This document shows, piece by piece, positions 276 to 23,967 of a stretch of DNA of 64,000 nt (positions are counted from its first letter, which is position 1; every line of letters starts with the position of its first letter). Under the pieces are notes generated by a model, which was not told the origin of the DNA, searched no databases, and was given only the letters and a program-made list of their open reading frames with translations. Position numbers and translations under genes: made by a program. This stretch comes from Clostridia bacterium. Lineage in GTDB: Bacteria; Bacillota; Clostridia; Christensenellales; Aristaeellaceae. The DNA lies in assembly GCA_017938695.1 (NCBI GenBank), contig JAGBBA010000064.1, positions 18,883 through 82,882 on the forward strand, read 5' to 3'.

Positions 276-1289
276 TTATTTGCCTGCACCACGCAGGGCA
301 TGAGTGCCCACCCGGCGGCCCAGTTCAAACAGGCTGAAGCGGTCTTCGAAGGCCCGGCGGGCATTGCGGCACATCTGCTGATAGGTTTCCGGGTCGCGGA
401 GGGTGTCCAACGCCTGGGCCAGGGCTTCGGGGGTCTTTGGGATGATCAGGCCGGTGCGGCCCTGGTCGATGTAATCGGGCACGGTGTCGTTGGGGGTGGT
501 GATCACCGGCTTGCCCAGCATGGCGGACTGCAGGAAAACCAGCTGTCCGGAGGAAAACTTTTCGCTTTGCAGGGGAACCAGCGCGGCCCGGGCACCGGCC
601 AGCAGGCGCAGGTACTCGTCGCCGTGGCAGTTTTTCAGGTACTTGATGTTGGCCGTGTCCTCGGACTTCTCCACGTCGCAGATGATCATCAGCGGGGCTT
701 CGTCCTTGGGCCAGGCTTCCCGGAGGAAGGCGTAGTCCCGGTTGCTGCGGCCTGCGGCGACGTAGTAGGGCTCCTCAGGCTGGGCGTCACTGTACAGGTC
801 GGGCCGGTCGGCCACGCCCAGGAGCTCGGTGGCGAACTTGTCCTTGCTCACGCCGAAGTAATCAGCGTAGTAGTCCACCTCGCTCTGGCTGTACACGACG
901 ATCTTATGCACATAGTCCGACGTGACCGTGTAGCGGACGAACCACTCGAACACCCGGCCGATCAGGCCCTTTTTCGGCTTGTAGATCAGGGCCATGATGG
1001 TGATCTGCGGCGGGTTTTTCACATGGAAGAGCCGCAGGAAAAACACGGTGATCAGCCCCAGGAACTGCTCCCAGGAGATGATGTGGGAGTACCGCTTGCG
1101 CTGGAAAAACAGTGCCATTGGCCCCAGGAAATAGGTCAGGAACCGGGTGTATTTCTTGATCCCGTTGTACTGGTTGATCACGCAGACCTTCACATCCCAG
1201 GGGGAGCCGGTGGCCTTTTCCACGCCGCGGCGGAAAGGCCAGTCCTCGTCCACGGTGTTGCCCACCAGGATCAGCTTTTTCTTGTCCAT
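276..1289 (-). CDS. GT4-type glycosyltransferase
   Basis: The 337-residue product probably transfers a sugar from a nucleotide donor to the growing polysaccharide repeat unit at the inner membrane face. The C-terminal half has the GT-B fold signature of family 4: an EKFSSGQLVFLQSAMLGKPV segment in which the usual acidic donor-binding motif is weak, then PVITTPNDTVPDYI and GLIIP, where related enzymes bind the nucleotide sugar. The N-terminal half is hydrophobic around residues 50-95, which suggests membrane association. It is the last gene of the minus-strand operon, 20 bases after the upstream glycosyltransferase, with a GGAGGATCAT-type ribosome site before the ATG. Sugar specificity cannot be read from sequence. 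Confidence 0.85.
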   Translation of the reverse strand: MDKKKLILVGNTVDEDWPFRRGVEKATGSPWDVKVCVINQYNGIKKYTRFLTYFLGPMALFFQRKRYSHIISWEQFLGLITVFFLRLFHVKNPPQITIMALIYKPKKGLIGRVFEWFVRYTVTSDYVHKIVVYSQSEVDYYADYFGVSKDKFATELLGVADRPDLYSDAQPEEPYYVAAGRSNRDYAFLREAWPKDEAPLMIICDVEKSEDTANIKYLKNCHGDEYLRLLAGARAALVPLQSEKFSSGQLVFLQSAMLGKPVITTPNDTVPDYIDQGRTGLIIPKTPEALAQALDTLRDPETYQQMCRNARRAFEDRFSLFELGRRVGTHALRGAGK

Positions 1290-1309: not shown

Positions 1310-2542
1310 TCAGGGTTTGTCACAGAAGGCAGATTTGTACTTGGCGGCGATGTCCGGCCAGCTGTATGCCTCCCGGATGCGGGCCTTGGCCTTCTGGCCG
1401 TAGGCGGCGCGCTCTTCCTCCGGCATGCCGTCCACCTGATTGATAAGGGCCGCCAGGCTGCCTTCGGCCTTCTCCCAGTAGAGGGCGGCATCCTGCCCCA
1501 CCTCGCTGTTGAAGCACACGTTCAAAAGCAGGTTCAGGGGTGTGCTGCCCAGGGCCTCCAGCAGGGAAGGGTTGGTGCCGCCCACCTCATGCCCATGGAA
1601 ATAGGCGTGGGCGTTCTCGCGGATCTTCATCAACAGCTCCTGGTCGTACACCGTGCCCACAAAGCAGATGCGGGGGTCCTGCCGGAAGTGCAGGCGGCTT
1701 TCCAGGTCGTCCAGGAAATTCTGGTTCACGTTGGTGATGATGGCCAGCTTGCGCCGGGTGCGGCTGGCCATGTATTCGCGGATCATGGTTTCGTAGTTGT
1801 TTTCCGGCACGAACCTGCCCACGATCAGGTCATAGCCGTTCTTTTCCAGGCCCTTTTCCTTCAGCCAGGCGCAGAAGCGGGCGTCATCGTCCGCCAGGGC
1901 ACTGGGCCGGGTTTCCGCACCGTAGGCGATGAAGGTGGTCTTGGGCGAAGCACCGTGCATCCCCTTGCCGTCGTAGCTTTCGTGGATGTAGCGTTCGATG
2001 TTCTTCGAGTCGCAGATAGCCAGGTCGCAGAACTTGACCATCCGCCGTTCGGAATACTTCCAGTAGGCCCGCACCGGCGGTGCCCATTTGGCGCGCTTCC
2101 ACTCGTGGCCGTCGGGGTTCAGGAAAACCCGGCCGCCCAGGCGGTGCAACGCGCGATAAAGCCAGCCGATGAAGGGGCCGATGCGGCAGGTCATGATATA
2201 CACGATGGGGTGTTCGATTTTCTCCCGGCGGATGATGCGCAGGCACTCCAGGAATGCTGCCAGGTCGTAATAGATAGCCTGGGCAGGGCCCAGCTTTTCC
2301 GGCACGGGGATGCGGAAGCAGCGGGCGTTGTGGTAGATAAAATTCTCCTCGTCGATGATCTGCGCGCCGGGGGTGGCGGCCGGATCCATGCAGCCGTCGC
2401 CGTTGGCCTTGCAGGCAACGTGATACTGTACCTCGCCGTCCTCCTGGTGGTAGGCGGTCAGCTTGTCGATAAAGGTTTCATAGCCGCCGTACTTTCCCAG
2501 GGATTTGGCACCGATGCAGAAAACATGCTGGACATTGCTCAT
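1310..2542 (-). CDS. DUF1972-type (rhamnosyltransferase-like) glycosyltransferase
   Basis: The 410-residue product starts with QHVFCIGAKSLGKYGGYETF. This is the glycine-rich N-terminal signature of the DUF1972/Cps2T-like group, which includes rhamnosyltransferases of capsule loci. A GT-B C-terminal domain follows, with YFHGHEVGGTNPSLLEALGS near residues 312-331, the E-x7-E donor-binding region. The protein is likely cytoplasmic or peripheral on the membrane and adds one sugar to the lipid-linked repeat. Its start codon overlaps the stop of the upstream GT2 gene (ATGA), so the two are translationally coupled. The rhamnose specificity of characterised members may not hold here, and no dTDP-rhamnose genes are in the window. 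Confidence 0.87.
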   Translation of the reverse strand: MSNVQHVFCIGAKSLGKYGGYETFIDKLTAYHQEDGEVQYHVACKANGDGCMDPAATPGAQIIDEENFIYHNARCFRIPVPEKLGPAQAIYYDLAAFLECLRIIRREKIEHPIVYIMTCRIGPFIGWLYRALHRLGGRVFLNPDGHEWKRAKWAPPVRAYWKYSERRMVKFCDLAICDSKNIERYIHESYDGKGMHGASPKTTFIAYGAETRPSALADDDARFCAWLKEKGLEKNGYDLIVGRFVPENNYETMIREYMASRTRRKLAIITNVNQNFLDDLESRLHFRQDPRICFVGTVYDQELLMKIRENAHAYFHGHEVGGTNPSLLEALGSTPLNLLLNVCFNSEVGQDAALYWEKAEGSLAALINQVDGMPEEERAAYGQKAKARIREAYSWPDIAAKYKSAFCDKP

Positions 2543-3435
2543 GATACATTCGCTTCTTTCGTTTGGGCGGTGGAGGTCTGGGCTTTTTGCTTGCGCCTGC
2601 TGTTCAGAAAGCTTTTCGCAAAGGGCACCAGGCCGGGGTAGTACCAGCGCATCATTTGCAGGAACCGCTTGCGCTGCCCGGGGGCGGCGTTCTTTTGCTT
2701 CAGGTATCCCTCCAGCAGGTTGCGCAGGGCGTGCATGGAGATCACCGGGCAGTTTTTCACCACCTCCGGGTGCTTGCGGCTGAACAATTCCAGCGCACAG
2801 AGCATCTTGTTATAATTCACGCTGATGGAATCCTCGCCGATGATGTAATCCACCAGGGGGATGTCCATGCAGTAGGCCCGGTATTTTTTCATGGCCCGGT
2901 AGAGCCACTCCATGTCCTGATAGCGGGGCATGGCCGGGTCGAAGAGCACATGCTCCAGCACCTCGCGCCGGGCGAACACATTCTGCGTGCCAAAGCCGAA
3001 AATATCATCCTCCAGGGTGATAAAGCCCTCGCCCACGCGCTTGGGGAAAAGGGTTTTGCTGCCGTCGGGGTGGCACATGGCCAGCTTGCAGATCACGATA
3101 TCGCTGCCGGTTTCGCGGATGCAGTGCAGCTGCTTTTCCAGCTTATCGGGATACCACAGATCGTCGCTGTCGTGAAAGGCGATGTACTCGCCCCGGGCCA
3201 GGGCAATGCCGTGATTGCGGGCGGCACAGGCACCGGCGTTCTCCTGATACACATAGCGGACGCGGTCATCCTGCAGCCCCTCTACCACCTGCCGGGTATT
3301 GTCGGAGGAGCCGTCGTCGATGATCAGCAGCTCAAAATCCGCAAAGGTCTGCGCCAGAACGCTCCGGGCGGATTTTTCGATCACATGCGCCCGGTTATAG
3401 GAGGGGATGATCACCGAGATCAGGGGCGTTGACAT
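2539..3435 (-). CDS. GT2 family glycosyltransferase
   Basis: The 298-residue product has a complete GT-A domain. The N-terminal PLISVIIPSYNRAHVI strand is followed by FELLIIDDGSSDNT, ENAGACAARNHGIALARGEY and the DxD-type metal site FHDSDDLW near residues 88-95. It would transfer a sugar from a UDP- or similar donor to a lipid-linked acceptor. The C-terminal quarter is basic and rich in Lys/Arg, typical of the membrane-facing tail of such enzymes. It lies between the asparagine-synthetase-like gene and the DUF1972 transferase and overlaps the latter by 4 bases. Donor and acceptor are unknown. Confidence 0.9.
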   Translation of the reverse strand: MSTPLISVIIPSYNRAHVIEKSARSVLAQTFADFELLIIDDGSSDNTRQVVEGLQDDRVRYVYQENAGACAARNHGIALARGEYIAFHDSDDLWYPDKLEKQLHCIRETGSDIVICKLAMCHPDGSKTLFPKRVGEGFITLEDDIFGFGTQNVFARREVLEHVLFDPAMPRYQDMEWLYRAMKKYRAYCMDIPLVDYIIGEDSISVNYNKMLCALELFSRKHPEVVKNCPVISMHALRNLLEGYLKQKNAAPGQRKRFLQMMRWYYPGLVPFAKSFLNSRRKQKAQTSTAQTKEANVS

Positions 3436-3468: not shown

Positions 3469-4995
3469 TCAGCTGTGCTGGTCAAACTTCCGCGACAGCT
3501 TTTTCTTCTCGATCTTGTGCTGGATAAAGCTCACGTAGGTCTGCACGGTTTTCTTTATGCCCAGGGTGCGCAGGCGGTGAAGGCCGCGCTGCAGCTTTTT
3601 GCCCAGCAGGGCCAGGGACGATTCGCCGGAAATCTTGTCGCTGCCAAAGGGCACATCGCCAATGGCGGGGCAGACATGGCGGATGATCCGGGCCTGGTGG
3701 TGTTTGGTCATGCGCTCGTCCCTGGGGAATTCCAGCAGCATGCTCATGAACAGGCGGCAGTTGGCAGGCTGCAGGGAAACGGCGTGATCCAGCATATCGA
3801 AGCCGGACTCGATGGCGGAAAGCCAGCAGCCTTCGCGCTGCAGCCACAGGAACAGATTGCTTGCCACCAGGTCCTTTTCCGGGTGGGCGTCGTTCCAGGC
3901 GAAATACTGCTCCAGGGAGCGCTTTTCGATGGAATCTGCCTGCACGCCGAACCAGTCGTAAAAATCAAAGCCGGGGCCTGATTCGGTAAAGGTGCGGCGG
4001 AAGTATTCGATCACGTTTTCCCAGATGGAGCTGCGCAGGAAAGCCACATCTCCAAAAGATTCGATCAGCTGCTGATATTGCCCGTGGGCGTAAAAGATCC
4101 TGTCCTGGTCGCGGATCAGGCCGGCGGTCTGGGACAGGTAATCCTGCTCCAGCTGAGCATCGTACCGGTCATGATCCACGGGAACGTAGTGATGCTTCAC
4201 ACCAGTCAGCTCGCACAGCTTTTTCGGGATGCTGATATCATCGGTGTAGATGGTGTCATAGGCCAGGGTGTAGGCATCGAAGTCGATCCCGGCGTGCTTC
4301 GCCAGGGCGAAGAGGGTGCGGGAATCGTATCCGCCGGTGAGGGCGACCAGCAGCTTCTTTCCGCCCAGTGCCTTGCGCATGTTGTGCATGGAGGCGGTGA
4401 AAAGCCTGGTGAAGGCTTCGATGCGCTGTGCATCATCGGCGATGCCCTGGTAGCCCTGGGCCAGCAGCGGCCGGGCGGCTACTTCGCCGGTATCGTACTG
4501 GTACGTCTGGGAGGCCAGCAGCTTGTACACGCCCTCGTAGTGGGTCAGGGGGCCGGGCATCCAGTTCATCACACCGGGCTTGGGGGTGTAAAGCTGCTCC
4601 GGCAGCCCGGCGGCCTGGGCCAGCAGCGTGCAGTCGCTGGAAACGCCCCGGTCGCTGTAGAAAACGGAGAGCATGCTGCAGGTATCCGTATACACGGTGG
4701 CGCGGTGGATCAGCACATAACGGCCGCACCAGGTCTCCTCCATGGCGAGGACGGCTTCCCGGGGTGCGCCCTGGGGATAGCGAACGCAAAGCTGGCTGAT
4801 CTCCTCCTCGGGGGTGCCCCGGGAGGGATCCACCTGCCAGGCGATGCCCAGCAGCAGGGTCTGCTTGTCCTGGGAAATGAAAACCTTCAGCTTTTCGTGA
4901 TAGCTGAGAATCCAGCCGTCATGCAGCGAAACATGCTGATACCCGGGCAGATCAACGGTGTTTTTCAGGATAGCGAATTGGCCGCCGCGGATCAT
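3469..4995 (-). CDS. Asparagine-synthetase-like protein of the polysaccharide locus
   Basis: The 508-residue product has the AsnB architecture. Residues 1-200 form a glutaminase-like beta domain and residues about 210-480 an ATP-pyrophosphatase domain with the PP-loop LLVALTGGYDSRTLFAL, a variant of SGGxDS. The N-terminus is MIRGGQFA, so the catalytic Cys2 of true glutamine amidotransferases is missing. Related proteins in surface-polysaccharide loci are thought to amidate or otherwise adenylate-activate an acidic sugar or peptide; the reaction here is unknown. The start overlaps the flippase stop by 4 bases. A housekeeping asparagine synthetase is unlikely given the missing Cys and the location. 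Confidence 0.8.
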   Translation of the reverse strand: MIRGGQFAILKNTVDLPGYQHVSLHDGWILSYHEKLKVFISQDKQTLLLGIAWQVDPSRGTPEEEISQLCVRYPQGAPREAVLAMEETWCGRYVLIHRATVYTDTCSMLSVFYSDRGVSSDCTLLAQAAGLPEQLYTPKPGVMNWMPGPLTHYEGVYKLLASQTYQYDTGEVAARPLLAQGYQGIADDAQRIEAFTRLFTASMHNMRKALGGKKLLVALTGGYDSRTLFALAKHAGIDFDAYTLAYDTIYTDDISIPKKLCELTGVKHHYVPVDHDRYDAQLEQDYLSQTAGLIRDQDRIFYAHGQYQQLIESFGDVAFLRSSIWENVIEYFRRTFTESGPGFDFYDWFGVQADSIEKRSLEQYFAWNDAHPEKDLVASNLFLWLQREGCWLSAIESGFDMLDHAVSLQPANCRLFMSMLLEFPRDERMTKHHQARIIRHVCPAIGDVPFGSDKISGESSLALLGKKLQRGLHRLRTLGIKKTVQTYVSFIQHKIEKKKLSRKFDQHS

Positions 4996-6539
4996 GCAGA
5001 ACGCCTCCTTTTCAGCAATTGGGTCACCTGCTTCCAGTCACGCCTGCTGAAAACGATCAGCAGGTGCAGTGCAGCACCGATGATCAAAAGCACCGCTGCC
5101 GAGGCGATCAGCGCAGGCCAGGAAGCAGGGGTGTACAGCAGGGAAAGACCCTTGAAAACGGCCACCAGCACCGCGCAGGACAGCACATTGCGCAGAATGT
5201 TGGGGTAGAAGGTCCACCAGGGCAGTTGCAGCACATGGGCCATATACAAGGGATTGGTAACGAAGTTGATCACAAACATCACGAACACGGTAGTCCACAC
5301 CACGGCGTAAATGCCCAAACTGGTGTAGCGGATGAGGAAATACATGCTCACCACGTTGAACAGGCCGCCTGCAATGGTGATCAGGGTGGGGAGCTTCTTT
5401 TTTAGCGTCAGGATATAGATGTAGTAAAGGGGCTGCATGGGCCCGCCGGGGATGGTGGTCATGTTGCCGATGATGGTCAGCAGGTAGATCAGCGAGATGT
5501 CCTCATTGGGGATCCACAGCTTGTAGAAGGCCATGCCCAAGGCCACGAACCCGGCAAAGAAGATATTGCTCAGCATGCCGGAGAACTTCATGGCGATCTT
5601 CAGATCGCCCAGCAGGGTCTCCTTGTCGCCCTTGGCGTAGCTTCTCAGGTACAGGGGCTCGAAGGCCTGGCCCACCAGGATGAACATGCCGGCAAAAATG
5701 GCGTAGAATGTTTTCGAAAGTGCCAGCTGGCCCATGGCCAGGGGCGTGAGCATCAGGTTGCAGATGAGCAGATCCAGCCCCTGGTTCAGCATATCGCCCA
5801 GGGAGTTCAGCGTGGACCAGATGCCGTCCACCACCAACCGCTTGATGGCCTGGAAGGAGAAATAGCGACGCTGCACCTTTAGCTCAGGCGTATATCGTTT
5901 GCACAGCCAGCCGTTGCTCACCGCCACCACCAGGGACATGGTGGTGAGGCCGATGCCCACATAAAACACCCGGGGCGGCAGAAGGGTGTAGAGGGCGATC
6001 AACACCAGGGCCTCGCACACATAGGCCAGGGCCTTGAAGGCACCCACGGTGTCCAGCTTGTTTTTGATGTGCCCAGCCGCGCTGAAGGCGGTGGCCACCG
6101 TGGTGATCCAGAAGTTGACGAACACGAAGAACATCAATAGTTTGACATCGGTGACGATGGCCGGGGAGATTTGCAAAACCTTTTCCATGAACGAGGTAAA
6201 ACCCATGGCAATGGCAAACAACCCCGTGCCCAGCAGAAAATCGCCGAAGACGGTGGAGGAAAAATACGTATTGGCCTCATCCAGGTCGTTCTTATGATAA
6301 GCGATCACGATGTAGCGCGCGGCAAAGGAATTGAGTGCCGAGGCGGCGATTACCGCATACTGCGCAATATTCTTGGCCAGGGAAACAAAGCCATAGGCCT
6401 CGGTGCCCACGGTGGAGGAGATCAGCGGTGCCAGCAGCAGGGCGATCATGCCGTTGAGCAGCAGCGCGCCGCCGGAAACGACGATCGTCCGCAGCAGCTT
6501 CACATATTTGTTGGTGGGTTTCGCTTGTTGCATGTGCAT
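4992..6539 (-). CDS. Polysaccharide repeat-unit flippase (Wzx-like, MOP superfamily)
   Basis: The 515-residue product is highly hydrophobic with about a dozen membrane segments. Its N-terminus is that of the polysaccharide transporter branch: a short basic cytoplasmic tail, then VVSGGALLLNGMIALLLAPL and a GTEAYGFVSLAKNIAQYA segment. Such proteins flip undecaprenyl-diphosphate-linked repeat units across the inner membrane. Its place between glycosyltransferases and a Wzy-like polymerase supports a Wzx/Wzy-dependent pathway. The ATG at 6539 follows a second in-frame ATG-like context (MHMQQ), so the true start may be two codons later. Confidence 0.9.
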   Translation of the reverse strand: MHMQQAKPTNKYVKLLRTIVVSGGALLLNGMIALLLAPLISSTVGTEAYGFVSLAKNIAQYAVIAASALNSFAARYIVIAYHKNDLDEANTYFSSTVFGDFLLGTGLFAIAMGFTSFMEKVLQISPAIVTDVKLLMFFVFVNFWITTVATAFSAAGHIKNKLDTVGAFKALAYVCEALVLIALYTLLPPRVFYVGIGLTTMSLVVAVSNGWLCKRYTPELKVQRRYFSFQAIKRLVVDGIWSTLNSLGDMLNQGLDLLICNLMLTPLAMGQLALSKTFYAIFAGMFILVGQAFEPLYLRSYAKGDKETLLGDLKIAMKFSGMLSNIFFAGFVALGMAFYKLWIPNEDISLIYLLTIIGNMTTIPGGPMQPLYYIYILTLKKKLPTLITIAGGLFNVVSMYFLIRYTSLGIYAVVWTTVFVMFVINFVTNPLYMAHVLQLPWWTFYPNILRNVLSCAVLVAVFKGLSLLYTPASWPALIASAAVLLIIGAALHLLIVFSRRDWKQVTQLLKRRRSA

Positions 6540-6575: not shown

Positions 6576-7433
6576 TCAGCAGCCGCGCAGCTTTGCATAA
6601 ATTTTGTAGAAGAACAACTTGATCACATAAGGGGTCACCTGGGGCAGCTTGGCGCGCACGCCGCAGCGGCAGATGTTCCACAAAATGGCCACATGGGCCC
6701 GGGGATATTTACGGTAGTCCGCTTTGTTGATGCGGTAAATATTGCGGAAACCCTCGTACACCCGGTCCAGGCGGGTGGAGATATGGGCGCTGTTGTCCAT
6801 GTGCTTGATGAAATACACATCGTTGGTGCCGCGGACGGCATACTTCCGGGCAATGCGGATCCACAGCTCGTAGTCCTCTTCAGCAGGCTGGTTTTCCGTC
6901 AGGAAGCCGCCCACCTCGCGCAGGGCCTTCATGGAGATCAGCGGCACGGAGGCGGAGCCCACATAGTCCGTCCACAGCATGTCCTCCAGGGTGGGTTCGG
7001 GCTTAAAGATCTGGTGCTGCCAGGTGTATTCTTCCTTGTCGCTGCCCTCAAACAGGATGCGGCCGGTCACGAAGGCGATGCCCAGGTTGGGCGTTTCGTC
7101 GAACAGGCGCACCTGGGTGGCCAGCTTTTCAGGATGCCACTCATCGTCGTCATCCAAAAAGGCCAGCAGATCGCCCCGCGCCTCCTCGATGGCATGGTTG
7201 CGGGCCTTGCACACGCCGCCGTTCTTCCCCATGGGGACATAGCGCACCTTGGCCAGCTTCAGTACCTCTTGGCGGATCTCCCGGCTGTATTCGCTGGTGG
7301 CGTCGTTATCGTCCACCAGCAGCAGCTCGTAGATGGGATAGGTCTGGTTCAGTACGCTTTCGATAGAACGGATGATGGACTTCCACTCGCGCTTGTAGGT
7401 GGTGATGGCAACGGAGATTTTCCACTGGCTCAT
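6576..7433 (-). CDS. GT2 family glycosyltransferase
   Basis: The 285-residue product has a standard GT-A domain: ISVAITTYKREWKSIIRSI at the start, YELLLVDDNDA, NGGVCKARNHAIEEARGD and the metal site AFLDDDDEWHPEKL near residues 90-104. It probably adds a sugar to the repeat unit on the cytoplasmic side. Later motifs EEDYELWIRIARKY correspond to the ED.Ew acceptor/base region of GT2 enzymes. It lies 36 bases from the flippase and just after the acyltransferase gene. A GGAGGGATCC ribosome site precedes the ATG. Confidence 0.9.
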   Translation of the reverse strand: MSQWKISVAITTYKREWKSIIRSIESVLNQTYPIYELLLVDDNDATSEYSREIRQEVLKLAKVRYVPMGKNGGVCKARNHAIEEARGDLLAFLDDDDEWHPEKLATQVRLFDETPNLGIAFVTGRILFEGSDKEEYTWQHQIFKPEPTLEDMLWTDYVGSASVPLISMKALREVGGFLTENQPAEEDYELWIRIARKYAVRGTNDVYFIKHMDNSAHISTRLDRVYEGFRNIYRINKADYRKYPRAHVAILWNICRCGVRAKLPQVTPYVIKLFFYKIYAKLRGC

Positions 7434-7470
7434 AAGGATCCCTCCTGAGATAAAATGCCGTTTGGGTCAA

Positions 7471-8466
7471 TCAGTAACGGAACGCTTCTTTGATCACGGG
7501 GATCTTGCCCAGCACCCAGGAAGCAAACCAGGTACCGGCGATCAGCAGCAGCCACCCCAGGGTGGATTCCACCGGGCCGCTGACAAGAGAACGCATTTGG
7601 AGCGCATCCACCACGAAGGAGTGCAGCAGGAATGCGCCGAAGCTGCATCCGGCAAAACGGGCGAAGAAGCCGGAAAGCCCTTTGGATACGCGGAAAACCA
7701 GGAAGAGTACCGCGCTCCAGATGATGACCAGCAGGTTATCGTAAACGTAGTTGGATTCGATCTGCCCGGTGATCTTGTAGCAGAGGACGTATTGATAAAC
7801 AATACAGAGCACCGTCAGGACAAGAGCGGCGATGGGCAGGTGCACAGGCTTAAATTTGCTTATGTCCAGGGTACTCAGGTAGTAGCCGAGGAAAAAATAG
7901 AATAGCCACGTCCACAGCCGAAGCCGCTGGTTGATCGCTTCCTGAACAAAGAAGCCCCCATTGGCAATGGAAACAAGAGATGCAATATCCACCAGAACGC
8001 AAACTGCACCCAAGGCAAGGGTCAGGATTTTCAAATGCTTTTTGATCAGCGGGAAAGCCAGAAGCAGCAGGGTGTAGATCAATCCGAAGGTGATCAGGAA
8101 CCACAAATTGGTCACATGGTGATAGGCCAGCATGCCCTTGAGGCCCTCTTTGACGGACTGCATCAGCCCGGCCTGATGGAACAAAAGATAATACAGGCCG
8201 GTCACGCCGCCCCAGATGATCAGAACGCGGATGATGCTGATAAGCTTTTTCTTGTAATAATCCAGGGGAAAGCTTTCCCTGCGAAGCATCAGCGCGCCGT
8301 TGACCATAAAAAACAGCGGCATGCAGCACCGCGCTGCATAGAACAACACGGCGTTGTGACAGGGATCGGTCACCTCTGCGCCGCGTTGGGTATGCAGAGC
8401 GAAAACCATCAGCAATGCAAAGGTTTTGATGCCATCCAGATAGACTTCTCGGCTCTTTGTTTTCAT
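7471..8466 (-). CDS. Acyltransferase-3 family membrane protein
   Basis: The 331-residue product has about ten membrane segments and the family's N-terminal signature REVYLDGIKTFALLMVFALH, in which the Arg and His are typical of O-acetyltransferases such as OafA. CMPLFFMVNGALMLRR and TNLWFLITFGLIYTLLL follow, as in the family. It probably O-acetylates or otherwise acylates a sugar of the polysaccharide from the membrane. The gene overlaps the upstream polymerase gene by 4 bases. A-T content is slightly higher than that of its neighbours, which is common for locus-specific modification genes and fits exchange between strains. Confidence 0.87.
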   Translation of the reverse strand: MKTKSREVYLDGIKTFALLMVFALHTQRGAEVTDPCHNAVLFYAARCCMPLFFMVNGALMLRRESFPLDYYKKKLISIIRVLIIWGGVTGLYYLLFHQAGLMQSVKEGLKGMLAYHHVTNLWFLITFGLIYTLLLLAFPLIKKHLKILTLALGAVCVLVDIASLVSIANGGFFVQEAINQRLRLWTWLFYFFLGYYLSTLDISKFKPVHLPIAALVLTVLCIVYQYVLCYKITGQIESNYVYDNLLVIIWSAVLFLVFRVSKGLSGFFARFAGCSFGAFLLHSFVVDALQMRSLVSGPVESTLGWLLLIAGTWFASWVLGKIPVIKEAFRY

Positions 8467-9857
8467 GCTCGTTTATTCCTTTGCGGTTTTCTGTTCAATG
8501 CTCGTTTGGCACTGCCTTGCTTCAGCCTGGCAGCGCGCAGCTCCGCGCCTTTGGGCATGGAGGCATAGGCGATCTCCTTGCCCTGCTGCGCCAGGCCAAG
8601 CATCAAAAACAAGAACATGGTGCCGTAGGAGGATGGCGTGAAGGCGCGTTCTGTCAGGCCGCGGATGAGCAGCACCATAATGATGGCACTGCATACTACA
8701 TAGTGTTCCTCCGGGATTTTTTTCACGTTGATATAAGCGATGATCAGTGTCGCCAGGTAAATCGTCAGGCCGATCAGTCCCATGTCCAGCCACATTTCCA
8801 ACAGCACATTGTGGGAGCCGAAGGTCATGGAGCGGAACCAGGAATCGCGGGAATAGCAATTTTGCAGGTTTTGCAGGGCGATCTCGTCGCGCCAGAACAT
8901 GTTAAAGCCCGACCCTGTAAAGGTGTTGAACTGCTGCACATATTCCAGAATGCCTTCCCAGATCAGCGTTCGGTTGGACAGGGTGGCGTCCTTGCCGATG
9001 GAATTGAAGAAGGGCTCGAACAGGGGAAGGATCGTCATAGCGGCGATGAGAAAGCCGATGGAACCAACGGTATAGATGATCCCCCACTGAAAGCGGCCGC
9101 GGGCACCTAAACGCTTTTCCAGCACGAACAAAAAGGCGACCGGTATGGAGGCAGTGAACAGTGCACCGGCGTTCTGGCACAGGATCAGCAAAAACAGCTG
9201 AGCTGCCAGCACGCCCCAGAACAGCAGGGAGACTTTTTCTTTTTTATCCAGCTTCAGGCGGAGCAACACCATTTGCAGCACCATGCCGAAGCCCAGCTCC
9301 TGGCCCAGAGCGTTTTTACGATCAGCAATGCCGCGAAAAAGATAGCGGCCCTCTTCGTCAAAATAGAAGCCGATATGGGGGAAAAGAAAATACAAAACCA
9401 GGTTCGCAAACACAAACATGGTTTGCGCAGCGATGATAAATTCCAGCGTGCGCTTGATGTCATAGCGGTCGGTGACCCACAGGGCAAACAGGGCCGTCAT
9501 GGTAAAGCGCAGGCAGGAGATGAGCTGGTCGGCCACATAGTTGGTCACAGCCATGGACTGGATGAAGAACACCGCCAGCAGGAAATAGGTAGGCATGTGC
9601 CGTTTTTTCAGGTCGATGATCTTGATGTCCATCAGGTTGTCGGCGCTGGAAACCAGGATCACGGCGATCTGCAGGATGAAGGAGCTGTACTCGATGGCCA
9701 TGCCGATGGCGCCGCCGAAGAATTCCCGGTAGTTGCCGGGAAAACCCATGCTGCAAAAAAACGCATAGATCACGATAAAATCGATGATGCTGTTTTTCTG
9801 CCGGTCCATCTGGCCGCTCAGTCGCCTGTCCATGGTTCCATACTCCATCCTGTTCAC
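8463..9857 (-). CDS. O-antigen/capsule polymerase-like membrane protein (Wzy-like)
   Basis: The 464-residue product has about eleven membrane segments and a large outside loop. The loop carries LSNRTLIWEGILEYVQQF and, later, FGSHNVLLEMWLDMGLIGL. This H-N-x(4)-E-x(3)-G-x-I-G pattern is the hallmark of the O-antigen ligase/polymerase superfamily. It would join flipped repeat units at the outer face of the membrane. The tail is Lys/Arg-rich. It overlaps the VanZ-like gene upstream by 4 bases and the acyltransferase downstream by 4 bases, so all three are translationally coupled. A ligase role cannot be excluded because the two classes share the signature. Confidence 0.85.
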   Translation of the reverse strand: MNRMEYGTMDRRLSGQMDRQKNSIIDFIVIYAFFCSMGFPGNYREFFGGAIGMAIEYSSFILQIAVILVSSADNLMDIKIIDLKKRHMPTYFLLAVFFIQSMAVTNYVADQLISCLRFTMTALFALWVTDRYDIKRTLEFIIAAQTMFVFANLVLYFLFPHIGFYFDEEGRYLFRGIADRKNALGQELGFGMVLQMVLLRLKLDKKEKVSLLFWGVLAAQLFLLILCQNAGALFTASIPVAFLFVLEKRLGARGRFQWGIIYTVGSIGFLIAAMTILPLFEPFFNSIGKDATLSNRTLIWEGILEYVQQFNTFTGSGFNMFWRDEIALQNLQNCYSRDSWFRSMTFGSHNVLLEMWLDMGLIGLTIYLATLIIAYINVKKIPEEHYVVCSAIIMVLLIRGLTERAFTPSSYGTMFLFLMLGLAQQGKEIAYASMPKGAELRAARLKQGSAKRALNRKPQRNKRA

Positions 9858-10540
9858 TGCGGGCAGAAGCGGCGGAAGATCCGGTAGCCCAGAAAGCCGA
9901 CCGCGGCACCCAGAATATTTGTAACGATGTCGGTCAGGTCAGCCTGGCCCAGCAAAAGGAAAAACTGCACGGTTTCGATCAAGGTGGTGGCCATCAGGGC
10001 GATGAGGATCACATGGCCCCAGGCGTCCAGCTTTTCCGGATAAACAAAGGGCAGCAGCACGCCCAGGGGGATGAACATGGCCACGTTTTGCAACAGGTGG
10101 TTCACCGGTTTGAGGGAATGGGTGCGGATGGCCTTGCTGACCAGATCGGTGCGGAAGATGAAAACAGAGGTATCCTTGGCATACTCGCGGGAGAAGATGG
10201 TCACATAGGCCACCGCCAGCAGATACACGATGAAAAGGGTCAGCATGCCTTTGTTGATATGACACCAGTTCTGAAACAGCGCGTAGACGGCTGCCAAAAG
10301 AATCACGCAGGACATAAGCATCAGCAGGGTGAACAGGAGCATTTCTGTGCTGCCCAGGCTGCTGACGATGTAGATCACCGGCCCGGCGATCATCGCATAG
10401 GCAAGCAGCAGGACCACCGCCAGAAACGGACGCTTGATATACTCAGGGGCGCGGCGGGAGGCCATCTGCAACAGATAAATGTAGCCGCATACCAGCAGGA
10501 TGCCGATGATGGCCAGCTGAAACACATTCTGGTTGGACAA
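9854..10540 (-). CDS. VanZ-like family membrane protein
   Basis: The 228-residue product has six to seven membrane segments. Its second half carries the VanZ-like pattern: LLQNVAMFIPLGVLLPF, then TTLIETVQFFLLLGQADLTDI, then TNILGAAVGFLGYRIF. The biochemical role of the family is not settled. Members recur in polysaccharide and glycopeptide-resistance loci and may affect lipid-linked envelope intermediates. The canonical Arg after ETxQ (usually R.x.D) appears as QADLTDI, so that position is altered. It lies between the chain-length regulator (28 bases upstream) and the polymerase (4-base overlap). Confidence 0.82.
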   Translation of the reverse strand: MSNQNVFQLAIIGILLVCGYIYLLQMASRRAPEYIKRPFLAVVLLLAYAMIAGPVIYIVSSLGSTEMLLFTLLMLMSCVILLAAVYALFQNWCHINKGMLTLFIVYLLAVAYVTIFSREYAKDTSVFIFRTDLVSKAIRTHSLKPVNHLLQNVAMFIPLGVLLPFVYPEKLDAWGHVILIALMATTLIETVQFFLLLGQADLTDIVTNILGAAVGFLGYRIFRRFCPQ

Positions 10541-10568: not shown

Positions 10569-12209
10569 TTAGGGCATATTGGTGGGCTTGGTGGGGTTAT
10601 CGTTGATGAGGCTGTCCATCATATTGCGCGCACTGGGTGCAGGCTTGCTGCTGGCAGAGACCTCTGCCGCAGGGGCGGCGGGGGCAGCCTTCTTTTCGGG
10701 CTTGCGCTTGCTCTTCTTCCGGGCGGACTTCACCTGCACCGTAGCGGCGGTGGGATCTTCATTAGCATTGGCAGAGGTGGTGGGGAAGGCAGGTTCGGGC
10801 ATGTCGTCCACAACGGTCTTTTGCTTGCGGCTGCGGTTGACCTTCTTGTCCTTGCCCTTGCCGCGGTTCTGCACACCGTTGACGATGCAGCCCAGCACGC
10901 GGATGCCGGACTTGTCCAGCTTCTCCAGGGAGGCCTGGATATCCGGGATGGTGGCGGTGTCGTAGCCCACAACGTAGAGCACGGTGTTGGCCACCTGGTT
11001 CAGGCTCAGGGTATCGGACTCCTTGCCCACGGGCGGCGCGTCCAGAATGACGTATTCGTATTTTTCAGAGAGCTTGTTGATCAGACCGATCACCGTGCTG
11101 TCCATGGAGATGGCGTTATGCTCCAGCACCGTGGGCAGAATGTCCAGATAGCCGGTGAGGGTGGTGATGGCCTCGATCTCGTTGGCGTCGCCGCGGTAGA
11201 GGGCGTTGAGGGAGTTGCTGTAATCCACATGGTCCAGGAACAGGCCGCCCAGGCTGGGGTTACGGGTATCGAAGTCGATCAGCAGGGTGCGGTGCTCCAT
11301 GTCAGACAGCTGAATGGCCAGGTTGGCCGCCACAGAGGAGCGGCCCTCCCGGTTGGTGGTGGAGGTCACGTAGAAGCAGTGGTGCTCGTCCTTCATGCCC
11401 AGGCGGTTGCGCAGGATGTAAGCAGCGGCAGAGAAGCCCTGGATGATCTCCGGGGAGTTGTCGTCTTCCACCAGCAGGGAGCTTTCGCGGTTGAAGTGCG
11501 CGTCGTCCCGGGGGATCAGGCCCATGGTTTCCAGACCCAGCACGGATTCCACGTCCTTGACGTTGGTAAGGGTGGGGTGCATCAGGATCTCCATGGCGGC
11601 AAAGCCGACGCCGGTGCAGAAGCCCAGCATGGCCAGGATCAGCCACACGGTCTTGCCCATGGTGCTGGCACCCACCACCTCGGAGGTGGCGGTGTTGATC
11701 AGCACCAGGCGGCCCATTTGCAGGATCTCGGGCATCAGCTTGTTGGTGGCGGCGATCACCGCATTCCAGATGCCCAGGCCCTCGGTATCATCGCTCCAGG
11801 CCAGGGTCATTTCCAGGATCTGCGTGGCGTTGAACTGCCGGATGGACAGGTTCTCACGCAGGTCCTTGATGCCCACGCCCAGCAGCTGCTGCTCGTTGAT
11901 CACCTGATCCAGCACGCGGTCGCTCTTCATCAGGTAGGTCACGGCGTCCACCATGGTTTCGCCCAGGGTGAAGTCAAGCTGGCCGGGGGCGTCGGCGCCG
12001 TTGAGGTAGGTGCCTGCTTCCGGCTTGGTGATAATGGCAAAGGAGCCTGTGATCTCATGATTCTGCATGGAGGACTGGACATAGCTCACCGCGGAGAGCA
12101 GCAAGCCCATCACCAGACCCACAAAGGTCAGCGTCATGATCAGCTTCCAGCGTTTTTGAATGGCAAAGAGCATATCGCCGATGCGCAGCTGGATACCATT
12201 GGTCTGCAC
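10569..12209 (-). CDS. Fused chain-length determinant (Wzz/CpsC) and degenerate tyrosine-kinase-like ATPase (CpsD)
   Basis: The 546-residue product joins a Wzz-type domain, with membrane segments at about residues 22-44 and 186-206 and an outside loop between them, to a CpsD-like P-loop domain at about 255-450. The nucleotide site is degenerate. The Walker A loop reads TSTTNREGRSS at 282-292, with Arg290 where the invariant Lys should be. The Walker A' motif is IDFDTRNP at 311-318 and Walker B is YVILDAPP at 386-393. The tail after residue 450 is Lys/Ala/Pro-rich and has no tyrosine, so the usual autophosphorylation cluster is absent. It probably controls chain length structurally rather than as a kinase. 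The gene is third in the operon, 45 bases after the MotB-like gene. Confidence 0.85.
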   Translation of the reverse strand: MQTNGIQLRIGDMLFAIQKRWKLIMTLTFVGLVMGLLLSAVSYVQSSMQNHEITGSFAIITKPEAGTYLNGADAPGQLDFTLGETMVDAVTYLMKSDRVLDQVINEQQLLGVGIKDLRENLSIRQFNATQILEMTLAWSDDTEGLGIWNAVIAATNKLMPEILQMGRLVLINTATSEVVGASTMGKTVWLILAMLGFCTGVGFAAMEILMHPTLTNVKDVESVLGLETMGLIPRDDAHFNRESSLLVEDDNSPEIIQGFSAAAYILRNRLGMKDEHHCFYVTSTTNREGRSSVAANLAIQLSDMEHRTLLIDFDTRNPSLGGLFLDHVDYSNSLNALYRGDANEIEAITTLTGYLDILPTVLEHNAISMDSTVIGLINKLSEKYEYVILDAPPVGKESDTLSLNQVANTVLYVVGYDTATIPDIQASLEKLDKSGIRVLGCIVNGVQNRGKGKDKKVNRSRKQKTVVDDMPEPAFPTTSANANEDPTAATVQVKSARKKSKRKPEKKAAPAAPAAEVSASSKPAPSARNMMDSLINDNPTKPTNMP

Positions 12210-12254: not shown

Positions 12255-13883
12255 TTATTTTTTCCTGCGCTTGCGGATATACGAGGGAATGGCGATGGCC
12301 ATGGCGATGATGAACACCGCCAGGAAGCCGAACATCACATACTGCATCACATAGGTGGTATGGATGTTGATCACCTGCACCTCTGCCTGGTTGGCAATGC
12401 GGATATCATAGCGGGTTTCCGTGTCGCCGTCCTTGATCAGGTAGTAGCGGCCCTCTTCCAGCTCGTTGAACATCAGCGCGCTGCCGGTGGTGGTCCAGGT
12501 GCGGATCAGCTCGTCCTGCGCGTTGTACAGGGCCAGGCTCACGTTGGGCACCTGCACGCTGGAGAACTCATCCGTAATGCCGATGGAGGCGCGCAGCATG
12601 CGGTTGGTCAGGTTCACGGTGGCTTCGGTTTCCTCGCCGATGTAGCCGTTCAGGTCAACGGACACATGGGTTTCATCCTGGTTGTAGCGGTAGCCGGTGG
12701 TGGAGGCCGTTTGCAGGATGCGGTAGGTCACGCCCTTGTCCAGCTCGTCCAGAAGGATGCGGCCGCTGCTGTCGGTGGTGTAGGAAACGGGCTCGCCGCC
12801 GGGCACGGCACTGATCAGGAACGTTGCGCCGGAAATGCCCCGGGTGTTGTAAAGCTCGTCGGTCAGGTTCAGGCGGATGCGGGTGCGGCGGCTGGCCACA
12901 GTGTTCAGCGTGGGCAGGGCGTCGGTCTTCTGGGCGACGGTCACCTCGATCTCCTCGGTCAGACCGGCGTAGTGATCGGGGATCTCCTTCTGCCGCAGGA
13001 TATAGCTGCCCAGGTACAGCTCCTTGCTTTCGCCGTAGCCGTCCTCGTCGCAGGCAAGGGTGCCCACCAGCTGCCCGGCATAGTGGCGCATGGTGCCGTC
13101 GGCGGTGAGGATATCCTCGCCGGCGATGATATCAAAGCTGCCGCCGGAAACGGGCATGCCGGTTTCGGCATCGGTCATCTGCACGCGGATCACATTGCGG
13201 GCGGCAAACACCGGGATGCGCACCACCAGCGGTTCGGGCCAGTCGTATTCCTTGCCCAGGTAGAAGGCCACGTCCTCCGCCGGGTCGTAGCCTGCGGGGG
13301 TGGTCACCTGCCGGATCTCATAGTGCCCCTGGGCCAGCTTCTCCGGGAAGAAGAAGGTGCCGGCGTCGGTGGTGGCGTAGATGCGGTGGCTGAGAAGCTC
13401 GGGATAATATACGTTCAGGATCTGCAGGGCGTTGTTCTCGCCGTATAGCTCAAACTCCACGCCCGCTTCCTTGATGGTGCGGTTGGTTTCGGCGTCCACC
13501 ATCATCACATACACGGCGGACTTGGCACCGGGATCGCCTTCGCCGTGGCTGTCATCGCCACCGCCGCCGCCGTAGCCGGGATGCACAGGCGTGGGGGTGG
13601 GGGAGGGCGTGGGCGACACGGTGGGCGTGGGGGATGGGGTGGCGTAGGTGCCGCCGTCGCCGCCGTCATAGGCCCACAGGGGCGTGGGAGAAGGCGTGGG
13701 CGAGGAGGTAACGTCGCCGATTTCGGTGTCCACCAGCTCCTCGTCCGGCACATGGACCAGGTACAGGCCCATCAGGATGATAACGAGCATCAAGATCAGC
13801 AGCAGTGCAGAGAACATGTCGGAAGCAGGCTGCCAGAAGTTGAATTCATCGTTATTCGTAAATTTCTTCTTCTGCTTCATCAA
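12255..13883 (-). CDS. MotB-like membrane protein with SpaA/Cna-B-like extracellular modules
   Basis: The 542-residue product begins with a short basic tail and a membrane helix at about residues 22-43 in the context NFWQPASDMFSALLLIL. This matches the MotB/ExbD/ZorB stator helix FW-x(3)-D, with Asp22 at the proton-carrying position. No OmpA-like peptidoglycan-binding domain follows. Instead there is a Pro/Thr/Ser linker (58-100), a glycine-rich stretch (104-120) and four beta-rich modules at about 121-228, 229-330, 333-426 and 431-506. The modules have SpaA/Cna-B features (AGVEFELYG, GHYEIRQVTTPAGY, SGATFLISAV). A second helix (513-533) and a KRRKK tail anchor the C-terminus, so the body is a loop outside the membrane. 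Its ATG overlaps the stop of the stator-EAL gene (ATGA), the usual arrangement of stator pairs. Confidence 0.78.
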   Translation of the reverse strand: MMKQKKKFTNNDEFNFWQPASDMFSALLLILMLVIILMGLYLVHVPDEELVDTEIGDVTSSPTPSPTPLWAYDGGDGGTYATPSPTPTVSPTPSPTPTPVHPGYGGGGGDDSHGEGDPGAKSAVYVMMVDAETNRTIKEAGVEFELYGENNALQILNVYYPELLSHRIYATTDAGTFFFPEKLAQGHYEIRQVTTPAGYDPAEDVAFYLGKEYDWPEPLVVRIPVFAARNVIRVQMTDAETGMPVSGGSFDIIAGEDILTADGTMRHYAGQLVGTLACDEDGYGESKELYLGSYILRQKEIPDHYAGLTEEIEVTVAQKTDALPTLNTVASRRTRIRLNLTDELYNTRGISGATFLISAVPGGEPVSYTTDSSGRILLDELDKGVTYRILQTASTTGYRYNQDETHVSVDLNGYIGEETEATVNLTNRMLRASIGITDEFSSVQVPNVSLALYNAQDELIRTWTTTGSALMFNELEEGRYYLIKDGDTETRYDIRIANQAEVQVINIHTTYVMQYVMFGFLAVFIIAMAIAIPSYIRKRRKK

Positions 13884-15454
13884 GCCTTACCTTCGTTCAT
13901 GATTTTTTCGAATTCTTCCAGAGACATCGGCTTGGAAAGGTAGAAGCCCTGGCCCTCGGTGCAGCCGCACTTGCGCAGCAGCGTCATCTGCTCCATGCTC
14001 TCGATGCCCTCGGCTGCCAGGTTGATCTGCAGCTTGCGGGCCTGCTCAAACATGCCGCGCAGGCTGTTGGGGTTGGCGGCGGCGTTGCAGCGGCGCAGGT
14101 CCAGCTTCAGTAGGTCGGCCTTGATGTCCTCAATGGCCTGCAGGGCCATATAGTCGCCGTCGAAGCCGTCGATGGCCACGCGGAAGCCAGCCTGGCGCAG
14201 CTTTTCCTCGGTTTCGATGGCTGCCTCGGGGCACTGCAGATAGGCGTTCTCCGCGATCTCGATCTCCAGGCTGCGGGGCGGGATGCGGTACTTCTTCAGC
14301 ATTTCGGTAAAGAACTCGGTGATGTCCATGGCCAGGATATCCGTCTTGGTCACGTTGATGGACAGGGGCACCGGGCGGATGCCCTGGTCGATCCAGCGGC
14401 GGACGGCGGCGCACACCTGCTCCCAGATGTGCTTGTCCAGCTTGGTGATGGAGCCGTTCTTTTCCAGCACGGGGATGAACTCCGCCGGGGACACCGTGCC
14501 CAGCTTGCCGTGGTTCCAGCGAACCAGGGCCTCGGCACCCACCACCTTGCGGGAGTTCAGGTCAAACCGGGGCTGGAGGTAGAACACGAATTCCCCCGTG
14601 CGCAGGCCCTGGAGGATCTGGGGCATCAGGGTTTGCTCTTTGCCGGTGGCAGGGGCAGCAGCGGGGTTGTTGCCGCCGTCGGCTGCGGAAAAGGGCAGCG
14701 CGCCGCCCTTGCTCATCTTTTCCAGCAGGTCGGTGATCTGCTTGATCTCCTTATGCTCGCGGTAGCGCAGCTGCTCATCCACGGTGGGGATGATATTCTG
14801 ATGGAATTCCTCGGTGAAAAGGCCCATGTTGCGCAGCACCATGTTCCAGGCAATGCGGTACATGATGTTGAACGCCAGGGACAGGATCAGACCGGCGATG
14901 GAGGTGTAGAAAGCCACCTGGATACCGCCCAGCAGGGCCTGCACGCTGGTCAGGGCTGCGCTGACGGTGCTGAAGCCGATGTTGCGGATACCCATGATCA
15001 GGCCGATGAAGGTGCCCAGCAGGCCCAGGCCCGTCAGGCTGCCGGGAATTTGATGGATCACGTTCTGCCAGCTGCGCAGGGCCAGGCTTTCCTCGTTGAT
15101 GAACTCGTCGATGTCAGACAGCACCTGGCCGGATTCGCGCTGGGCCTGCACCTTGGCGCGGTAATCGGTAAAGATCTCGTCCATGGTGCGCTGGTGGAAA
15201 AACTCGTCGATCTGAAGCATGGCGGCCCAGGTGGACTGGCTGGGCATGGAAAGCGCATGATCGATGTTCTCCATGCCGGTTTCAAAGCCGTGATAAAACT
15301 GCACCGCCGGAAGGATGCCAAACAGGCCGCCCGCCACCAGAATGCCTTCCATCAGCACGATAAACACGGTGGAAATGGAGTCGGGGGCGTAGGCCATCAG
15401 CACGATGCCGGTGATCAGGATCAGGGCCATAAAGGTGTAGATCAGTCTGCGCAT
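13880..15454 (-). CDS. MotA/TolQ/ExbB-type proton channel fused to an EAL domain
   Basis: The 524-residue product has four membrane segments (about 4-22, 28-50, 137-157 and 178-203) with a cytoplasmic loop of roughly 80 residues between the second and third. TGLGLLGTFIGLIMGI (141-156) and AFYTSIAGLILSLAFN (181-196) match the channel core of the family, with Thr148 and Thr184 at pore-facing positions. Residues 280-520 form an EAL domain: Glu308-Ala-Leu, Asn367, Glu399/Glu402, Asp429, Lys450, Glu482 and Gln502 are present. The DDFGTG loop is replaced by DGFDGD (429-434), losing the second Asp. It may bind or slowly hydrolyse cyclic di-GMP to gate ion-driven work on the envelope. It is the first gene of the polysaccharide operon, with a GAGGAGA ribosome site. 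Confidence 0.85.
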   Translation of the reverse strand: MRRLIYTFMALILITGIVLMAYAPDSISTVFIVLMEGILVAGGLFGILPAVQFYHGFETGMENIDHALSMPSQSTWAAMLQIDEFFHQRTMDEIFTDYRAKVQAQRESGQVLSDIDEFINEESLALRSWQNVIHQIPGSLTGLGLLGTFIGLIMGIRNIGFSTVSAALTSVQALLGGIQVAFYTSIAGLILSLAFNIMYRIAWNMVLRNMGLFTEEFHQNIIPTVDEQLRYREHKEIKQITDLLEKMSKGGALPFSAADGGNNPAAAPATGKEQTLMPQILQGLRTGEFVFYLQPRFDLNSRKVVGAEALVRWNHGKLGTVSPAEFIPVLEKNGSITKLDKHIWEQVCAAVRRWIDQGIRPVPLSINVTKTDILAMDITEFFTEMLKKYRIPPRSLEIEIAENAYLQCPEAAIETEEKLRQAGFRVAIDGFDGDYMALQAIEDIKADLLKLDLRRCNAAANPNSLRGMFEQARKLQINLAAEGIESMEQMTLLRKCGCTEGQGFYLSKPMSLEEFEKIMNEGKA

Positions 15455-23230: not shown

Positions 23231-23703
23231 ACCAGCGGAAGAATGAACGGCTGACGTCCAATGCGCAGAAACTGCGGCGTGCTATGACCAGGGAAGAACG
23301 CCGTTTGTGGTATGAATGTCTGAAACAGCTTCCTGTAACGGTGAACAGGCAAAAGGTGATAGGACATTATATTGTCGATTTCTACTGTGCATCAGCAAAG
23401 CTGGTGATTGAGCTGGATGGTTCTCAGCATTATCAGGAGGAAGCACGGCAGGCCGATTGTCAGAGAGATGCGTATCTGAACGGACTTGGGCTGCAAGTTT
23501 TACGCTATACCAACAGAGATGTGAACCAGCAGTTTCAGCAAGTGTGCGAGGATATATACAGGCAAATAATGCAGCGTACCACCTCATCAGTCGCTGCGGC
23601 GACAGCTTCCCCTCAAGGGGAAGCCAAGGAGAGCCGAAGCTTGACCGGGCACCCTGAGAGGTGCGTAAACCAGTTGGGTTGCGCACGAAAGCCTTCCCCT
23701 TGA
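23227..23703 (+). CDS. DUF559 (Vsr-like) endonuclease-domain protein
   Basis: The 158-residue product has a DUF559 core at residues about 5-115. It includes MTREERRLWYECLK, then VIGHYIVDFYCASAKLVIEL with the D-x(n)-E-L-D pattern of the PD-(D/E)XK-like fold, then DGSQHYQ and GLQVLRYTNRDV. Such proteins resemble very-short-patch-repair nucleases; cellular targets are unknown. The last 40 or so residues are encoded by repeat R2 (from 23571) and look foreign to the family, so the original stop was probably lost when the repeat arrived. The start overlaps the ABC exporter stop (ATGA). Confidence 0.8.
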   Translation: MNQRKNERLTSNAQKLRRAMTREERRLWYECLKQLPVTVNRQKVIGHYIVDFYCASAKLVIELDGSQHYQEEARQADCQRDAYLNGLGLQVLRYTNRDVNQQFQQVCEDIYRQIMQRTTSSVAAATASPQGEAKESRSLTGHPERCVNQLGCARKPSP

Positions 23704-23734
23704 GGGGAAGGTGCCCGAAGGGCGGATGAGGTGG
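23571..23734 (+). repeat. R2 interspersed repeat, copy 1
   Basis: This 164-base unit starts with GCAGCGTACCACCTCATCAG and ends with GATGAGGTGG, so the termini are inverted repeats (CCACCTCATC/GATGAGGTGG). It holds internal palindromes such as TTCCCCTCAAGGGGAA and its near mirror CTTCCCCTTGAGGGGAAG. Copy 2 follows after 29 bases in the same orientation. It looks like a MITE or REP-type element and carries no gene of its own. Confidence 0.85.
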
Positions 23735-23763
23735 ATGTGCGAGGAAAAGACGAGAAGGCAAAA

Positions 23764-23927: not shown

Positions 23928-23967
23928 ACGCAACGAAATCAACCAATATCAACAGGGAGGAATCACC

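Follow-up and report, generated by a model that had tools for sequence, protein, structure and literature searches.

A putative ion motor with a receptor-like EAL domain, encoded beside a polysaccharide co-polymerase-like protein in Clostridia

At the head of a row of minus-strand genes in a bacterium of the Clostridia (Christensenellales; Aristaeellaceae) lie three genes which encode, in order, an ion-channel subunit of the MotA/ZorA type fused to a degenerate EAL domain, a MotB/ZorB-like axle protein bearing a pilin-like rod, and a Wzz-like chain-length protein with a BY-kinase-like domain. The row spans 15454 to 276 of the window, by which we mean the whole 64,000-nucleotide stretch analysed (assembly GCA_017938695.1, contig JAGBBA010000064.1, positions 18,883 to 82,882), itself part of a genome of 2.53 Mb. 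We propose, with a probability of roughly 0.5, that these genes specify a Mot/Tol/Exb-type ion motor which acts on surface polysaccharide assembly by way of a co-polymerase and which in most lineages is controlled by cyclic di-GMP (c-di-GMP). All the evidence is drawn from sequence, the genomes being largely metagenome-assembled. It comprises the content and order of the genes, conserved residues, co-varying distances, riboswitches and folds predicted for single chains, and from it we infer the motor action, its 5:2 stoichiometry, the coupling to the co-polymerase, the binding of c-di-GMP by the EAL domain and the effect on polysaccharide.

A recurrent three-gene unit

A profile (A1) of 15 channel domains recovered 312 relatives on named genome contigs, the best 80 of which were analysed. 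The family is taken as the 76 loci at E <= 3e-46, loci L140-L143 (E 4e-29 to 1e-27) being set apart as what looks, from size and neighbour, to be another pair, in which the MotA-like protein is accompanied by one of OmpA type (Pfam check on the window's own genome only). That genome also encodes a second MotA-like protein (L063, 8346-9923) with an adjoining OmpA-type MotB (7318-8343).

The first-pass annotation had placed a channel-axle pair, in that order, between 15454 and 12255, and both the coordinates and the gene order match the DNA. A SpaA-type axle gene lies directly next to the channel gene, in the same order, in 72 of the 76 family loci, and the pairing is therefore not a matter of chance; the four loci without an adjoining axle comprise three contig ends (L095, L098, L125) and a broken gene (L139). 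Likewise, a gene for the Wzz/BY-kinase-like protein follows downstream in 70/76. Five of the misses are contig ends (L065, L093, L095, L098, L125) and the sixth, L122, is odd in showing a short axle frame, a glycosyltransferase frame and then a contig end; L135 and L139, where axle or channel frames are split in two, are both within the 70. Among 70 representatives less than 90% alike by channel, 63 have both partners (the window being counted in the 70 only). As judged from this gene order, the unit is one of three genes, for channel, axle and Wzz/BY-kinase-type co-polymerase.

The three genes also appear to evolve together. Over the 65 loci that hold all three, pairwise distances correlate at r 0.90 between channel and axle, 0.84 between channel and co-polymerase-like protein, and 0.90 between the latter and the axle, and with the channel distances those of VanZ correlate at 0.83 (37 loci), of the Wzx-like protein at 0.58 (20) and of Wzy at 0.35 (30), the last three values covering only loci detectable by our own models. 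On these figures the three genes, together with VanZ where it is present, move as a group while the polymerase gets swapped. The setting is commonly one of polysaccharide genes: a Wzy, Wzx-like, PGT or glycosyltransferase (GT) gene was found by our own models in 49/76 related loci, and Pfam finds such or related sugar genes in L094, L101 and L132, which those models left unscored. The models are narrow, 27/76 loci (some of them contig ends) scoring none of the four. The earlier expectation that the pair would recur at other polysaccharide loci is thus borne out widely, though some of the EAL-less copies described below show no such genes in the neighbours that were scanned.

The motor family is thin on the ground. 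With the threshold relaxed to 1e-5, some match to the channel query occurs in 283/300 genomes of the window's taxonomic family; at E <= 1e-60 the number is 20/300, the window's own included, and in other samples 3/391 of the class (own included), 1/297 of the order and 1/398 of the phylum, the last two being the window's own genome.

The channel and its axle

The channel protein (13880..15454, minus strand; 524 residues) carries a MotA_ExbB domain, above the Pfam cut-off, at residues 91-203 (E 3e-10) and an EAL domain at residues 280-509 (13928..14617, minus strand; Pfam E 1e-55), in agreement with the fusion of channel core and EAL originally proposed. In its Thr/Ser ring T148 is kept in 77/77 rows and T184 in 73/76, pore residues which point to a working channel. 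The single MotA-EAL chain was predicted with a mean predicted local distance difference test (pLDDT) of 89.1 and a predicted template-modelling score (pTM) of 0.51.

The axle protein (12255..13883, minus strand; 542 residues) matches ZorB/MotB at residues 3-42 (PADLOC E 1.8e-05). From a TTG start its gene overlaps the channel gene by 4 bases and the pore aspartate (codon 13818..13820, minus strand) is residue 22, as first described; the next ATG, which fits the DNA equally well, gives a 1-base overlap (TGATG) and makes it residue 21. By eye on the N-termini this aspartate is present in 71/72 axle proteins, and it is invariant in a 60-row alignment. The original label of a MotB-like protein therefore holds for the ZorB/MotB helix with its pore aspartate; the protein is not a plain MotB, for residues 121-509 (12357..13523, minus strand) fall in SpaA/prealbumin domains (E 2e-25 for SpaA), named by Pfam in 60/60 aligned axle relatives and expected to be extracellular, after which come a second predicted membrane helix (512-541) and a basic tail, and matching 60 axle proteins to families brought up no OmpA/peptidoglycan domain.

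AlphaFold2 (single chain, mean pLDDT 85.9, pTM 0.66) predicts a low-confidence linker at 48-118 and a beta rod at 121-509 with a block pLDDT of 91-98. Foldseek places the rod with pilins of Gram-positive bacteria and further surface proteins (183 matches at E <= 0.001), headed by the Bacillus anthracis TIE protein with pilins such as BcpA next; the TM-scores, at 0.1-0.4, are low, which a flexible row of domains may explain. Both helices flank the rod in 68/68 full-length relatives and in 65/68 the second lies no more than 60 residues from the C-terminus, a long tail following it in the other three (L099, L102, L115; Faecalibacterium). A sortase-anchored LPxTG pilin was considered and ruled out, the LPxTG signal being found in 0/68 full-length axle proteins. 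At what we take to be the usual position of the isopeptide-forming Lys of pilin domains, the residue is mostly not Lys.

A pilin-like rod on the axle could also suggest a surface conveyor, in which the motor moves such rods and bound polysaccharide along the surface, the output being coat packing or gliding and not polymerisation; AglRQS-Nfs, a motor reported to transport surface glycan strands (PMC3858216), would be the published parallel. However, the return of the rod to the membrane should limit long-range travel and the constant partner is a co-polymerase-like protein instead of an outer conveyor, and we consider this alternative unlikely.

All PADLOC matches of the window's channel and axle are to ZorA and ZorB models, which raises the possibility of Zorya-type anti-phage defence. 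Yet a scan of 10 neighbouring proteins gave no hit to a Zor model at E <= 0.001, whether for ZorC, ZorD or ZorE, the axle is devoid of an OmpA/peptidoglycan domain and the fixed neighbour resembles a polysaccharide co-polymerase; a defence function is rejected as very improbable.

The EAL domain as a candidate receptor

The EAL fold of the fusion protein is intact (its VIA-align matches are to EAL only and so are uninformative on the channel half), and the window's domain keeps all eight ligand-site positions scored, E308, R312, N367, E399, D429, K450, E482 and Q502, positions chosen on the basis of EAL structures. All eight are kept in 40/68 fused EAL domains, the window's among them. In 18/68 a maximum of 5/8 could be counted as conserved; contig ends cut two of the 18, and the low score of L098 is due solely to its contig end, leaving 17/68 eroded.

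The metal site tells a different part of the story. In the window the DDFG motif reads DGFD, the second metal-site Asp is G, N or S in 68/68 fused domains, and loop 6, reported to be essential for EAL activity (PMC12943098), is altered; the DD pair is kept in 5/6 unfused EAL domains of the same genome set. Because the second metal-site Asp is gone throughout, the domain is not likely to be an enzyme and looks like a receptor instead. An active phosphodiesterase, by which the motor unit would locally destroy c-di-GMP, might be argued from the intact fold and from the E, N, E, D, K, E and Q kept at the window's site, but with a metal site that lacks the loop 6 DD in every fused domain this is disfavoured and we think it quite improbable.

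Other elements link the unit to c-di-GMP in some lineages. A c-di-GMP-I riboswitch (RF01051) heads the operon in 8/76 loci: it ends 56-109 nt ahead of the channel gene at L085, L089, L104, L106, L107, L110 and L115, and at L096 it precedes a VanZ-MotA pair, while at L091 one lies about 0.9 kb upstream with a reading frame in between. Rfam lists 55 c-di-GMP-I places, one below cut-off, across 24 of the 76 genomes; L065 and L082 fell outside the riboswitch model search and their genomes are covered by the Rfam listing with its stricter filters. A riboswitch hinted at by coordinates for L122 proved to lie outside that locus. In 7/7 near cases the 3' strand of the aptamer starts a hairpin, followed in six (not L106) by a T-run, and since this strand forms the terminator arm, the arrangement suggests that the ligand prevents termination and that these are ON switches. 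No c-di-GMP-II riboswitch was found in 50 of the 76 genomes, a weak negative in that control genomes gave none either. A second c-di-GMP-I riboswitch in L106 (7437-7534) stands ahead of an HD-domain gene (7629-8771).

Similarly, a fusion of HD-GYP and bacterial sugar transferase domains lies directly upstream of the motor unit in 6/76 loci (L105 8647-9954, L112 8660-9967, L118 8659-9966, L128 8468-9955, L133 8648-9958 and L138 5604-6914), each with HDIG, HHER and GYP all present (Pfam-checked on two genomes), and the unit of L115 is preceded by an HD-GYP response regulator.

The co-polymerase-like partner

The third gene (10569..12209, minus strand) encodes a protein with the PCP-2 layout of two membrane helices and a BY-kinase-type P-loop domain; it matches TIGR01007 at E 2e-20 and TIGR01006 at E 5e-9, in each case under the NCBIfam family cut-off. 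It has no Tyr in its C-terminal tail, and a separate BY-kinase above the family cut-off is encoded elsewhere in the genome (C48, E 7e-55). Across 71 such sequences the Walker A motif reads GK in 51, GR in 15 and GV in one, the Lys being altered in 16/71. The standard model accounts for co-polymerase cycling by tyrosine phosphorylation (PMC12004946), and the same source presents a pseudokinase, EcpK, for which a phosphorylation-independent guiding of its co-polymerase is proposed. Very long C-terminal tails occur on the homologues of L070 (13426-17004), L064 (13397-16039) and others, the longest frame having 1192 residues.

Copies without EAL and the weight of the evidence

Seven loci (L121, L124, L127, L129, L134, L136, L137) have no EAL domain, their channel proteins being of 246-278 residues (Pfam check on two), and all three genes are kept. 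The neighbours scanned include his, peptidase and ABC-transporter genes at L127, yicC, aminoacyl-tRNA synthetase and PPDK-type genes at L137, ilvD, priA and an alpha-amylase-family gene at L129, and amidotransferase, transglutaminase and AMP-binding genes at L124; these four loci all retain the co-polymerase gene. L121 adjoins sugar-biosynthesis and sugar-transferase genes, and L136 has a Wzy match below threshold. That the three genes stay together amid his, yicC, aminoacyl-tRNA-synthetase, ilvD and priA genes (L127, L137, L129) argues that the co-polymerase is part of the machine, so that the core would be motor plus co-polymerase, with c-di-GMP either added to it or lost later. On the tree, gaining or losing EAL takes one change and either order fits: in a quick tree the EAL-less rows are basal, and an approximately unbiased (AU) test on a carefully built 47-row tree did not reject a single EAL-less clade (p 0.60), the constrained tree scoring higher.

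These copies bear on a further alternative, a sensor, in which ion motive force, or the load on the rod, is read by the two channel proteins and signalled to the EAL and BY-kinase-like domains that set polysaccharide output. The signalling-type cytoplasmic domains, the degenerate EAL and the partly changed Walker A motif would suit such a device. The EAL-less channel copies still keep T148 and the axle aspartate, which would be needless for a scaffold, although a sensing channel would keep them too; on balance a sensor seems rather improbable.

Several observations weigh against a motor acting through the co-polymerase under c-di-GMP control. VanZ co-varies with the channel as strongly as do the members of the three-gene unit among themselves, and correlated distances arise too from plain joint inheritance. 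At L103 (7199-8869) the pore aspartate of the axle is replaced by Ala. By Pfam the window's third protein scores only barely above cut-off for AAA_31 and weakly for Wzz (E 0.02), and its Walker A motif reads EGRS, with Arg in place of Lys. The window itself has no c-di-GMP-I riboswitch, and at L124, L127, L129 and L137, where 3 to 5 neighbours each were scanned, none is a polysaccharide-assembly gene. Finally, because EAL is absent in seven loci and eroded in 17/68, gating by c-di-GMP cannot be the core function. The c-di-GMP link first proposed keeps the support of the ligand-site residues and the riboswitches and loses its generality and, probably, any enzymatic part. The axle gene of L103 is possibly a decaying copy.

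A possible mechanism

By homology to ZorAB and MotAB, two MotB-like helices would be ringed by five MotA-like chains, and the ring would turn or cycle as ions flow past the aspartate of the axle. The outer pilin-like rod of the axle is predicted to return to the membrane, and the axle should consequently exert its effect on an adjacent membrane complex instead of being anchored in peptidoglycan by an OmpA domain. The most likely load of the motor would be the Wzz/BY-kinase-like co-polymerase, whose assembly cycle the motor could drive, or else the motor could pull the nascent chain from the Wzy site through the wall. Where the Walker A Lys is changed, the motor may itself supply the cycling of the co-polymerase. 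In most lineages control by c-di-GMP would act through the receptor-like EAL on the ring, and in some additionally through the operon riboswitch or the HD-GYP fused to the initiating sugar transferase. In its most specific form, which we put forward tentatively as something short of an even chance, a rotary ion motor, as a new class of machine, would power or pace the polymerisation of a surface polysaccharide and its outward threading by cycling the co-polymerase, with the c-di-GMP receptor on the ring serving as a clutch.

The gene row of the window

Downstream of the unit, and likewise on the minus strand, the row continues with a VanZ-family membrane protein (9854..10540, Pfam E 5e-20), a Wzy-type polymerase/ligase (8463..9857, Wzy_C, E 2e-10), an acyltransferase 3 (7471..8466, E 2e-27), a family 2 glycosyltransferase (6576..7433, Pfam), a membrane protein read from its sequence as a Wzx-like flippase (4992..6539), a protein which we read as asparagine-synthase-like and which has only a weak, sub-cut-off match to QueC (3469..4995), a second family 2 glycosyltransferase (2539..3435), a DUF1972 glycosyltransferase-like protein (1310..2542) and a group 1 glycosyltransferase (276..1289), the last three named by Pfam. 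The first-pass annotation had the pair leading a Wzx/Wzy-type operon; Wzy_C and the glycosyltransferases support this, whereas the Wzx label is unconfirmed, the protein having no Pfam family at E <= 0.001. Homologues of it occur, by our own model, in 20/76 related loci.

Elsewhere in the window a 697-residue frame (19236-21329, minus strand) joins YidC/60KD_IMP (residues 26-276) to CDP-glycerol glycerophosphotransferase (332-609) and adjoins a sulfatase-family gene (17210-18949) which we read as LtaS-like. A 483-residue frame (23968-25419, plus strand) combines GNAT acetyltransferase and mannose-6-phosphate isomerase domains, and at 23568-23928 there is a 168-nt direct repeat whose copies are 92% alike at a spacing of 193; inverted repeats of 21 nt accompany it, and a DUF559 gene (23227-23703) lies beside it.

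Relation to known systems and implications

By profile the nearest channel and axle are those of ZorAB (Zorya types I and II), in whose solved ZorA5B2 complexes an aspartate and a Ser/Thr ring are described (PMC11890865); both have counterparts here. Unlike ZorAB, the unit has EAL in place of the long ZorA tail, no peptidoglycan domain and no Zor effector in 10 neighbours, and it adds the EAL domain on the ring, the pilin-like rod, the second axle helix and the co-polymerase-like partner. The closest working precedent for a Mot/Tol/Exb motor serving a surface glycan is AglRQS-Nfs of Myxococcus xanthus, described as transporting glycan strands on spores (PMC3858216). It differs from the present unit in its partner proteins and its envelope. 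To our knowledge it has neither an EAL domain nor a SpaA rod. The MotAB stator shares the ion-channel core and, on the proposed reading, control by c-di-GMP, whereas the unit lacks the OmpA anchor and fuses EAL to the channel; the c-di-GMP brakes of MotAB, YcgR and MotI, act as a separate PilZ protein.

The third gene resembles the Wzc/CpsCD-type co-polymerases, which combine co-polymerase and BY-kinase domain, and likewise the pseudokinase EcpK, systems in which no motor figures in the text available (PMC12004946). The EAL domain in turn recalls LapD, with an EAL fold without the full active site (PMC3032553), and the degenerate EAL receptor FimX, neither of which sits on an ion channel. The A subunits of non-flagellar stator relatives carry a variety of additional domains according to a published survey, and the words EAL, c-di-GMP and polysaccharide are absent from its main text (PMC12505986). 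Word searches within that paper and within PMC9389320, PMC11890865 and PMC10519070 found no description of the three-gene unit, nor was one found in the open-access library searched, subscription papers and preprints lying outside that scope; a motor/co-polymerase machine of this kind thus appears to be undescribed.

The unit is carried by isolate-named records (Faecalibacterium longum CLA-AA-H243, F. gallinarum JCM 17207 and Blautia sp. MSJ-9), and the proposal is therefore testable. If it is true, polysaccharide assembly in Gram-positive-type gut bacteria would tap ion motive force directly, and the constant presence of a motor beside a co-polymerase whose Walker A Lys is altered in part of the family would offer an alternative source of drive. 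Mot/Tol/Exb motors would gain a role in cells without an outer membrane, and the fused EAL domain could serve c-di-GMP as a direct clutch.

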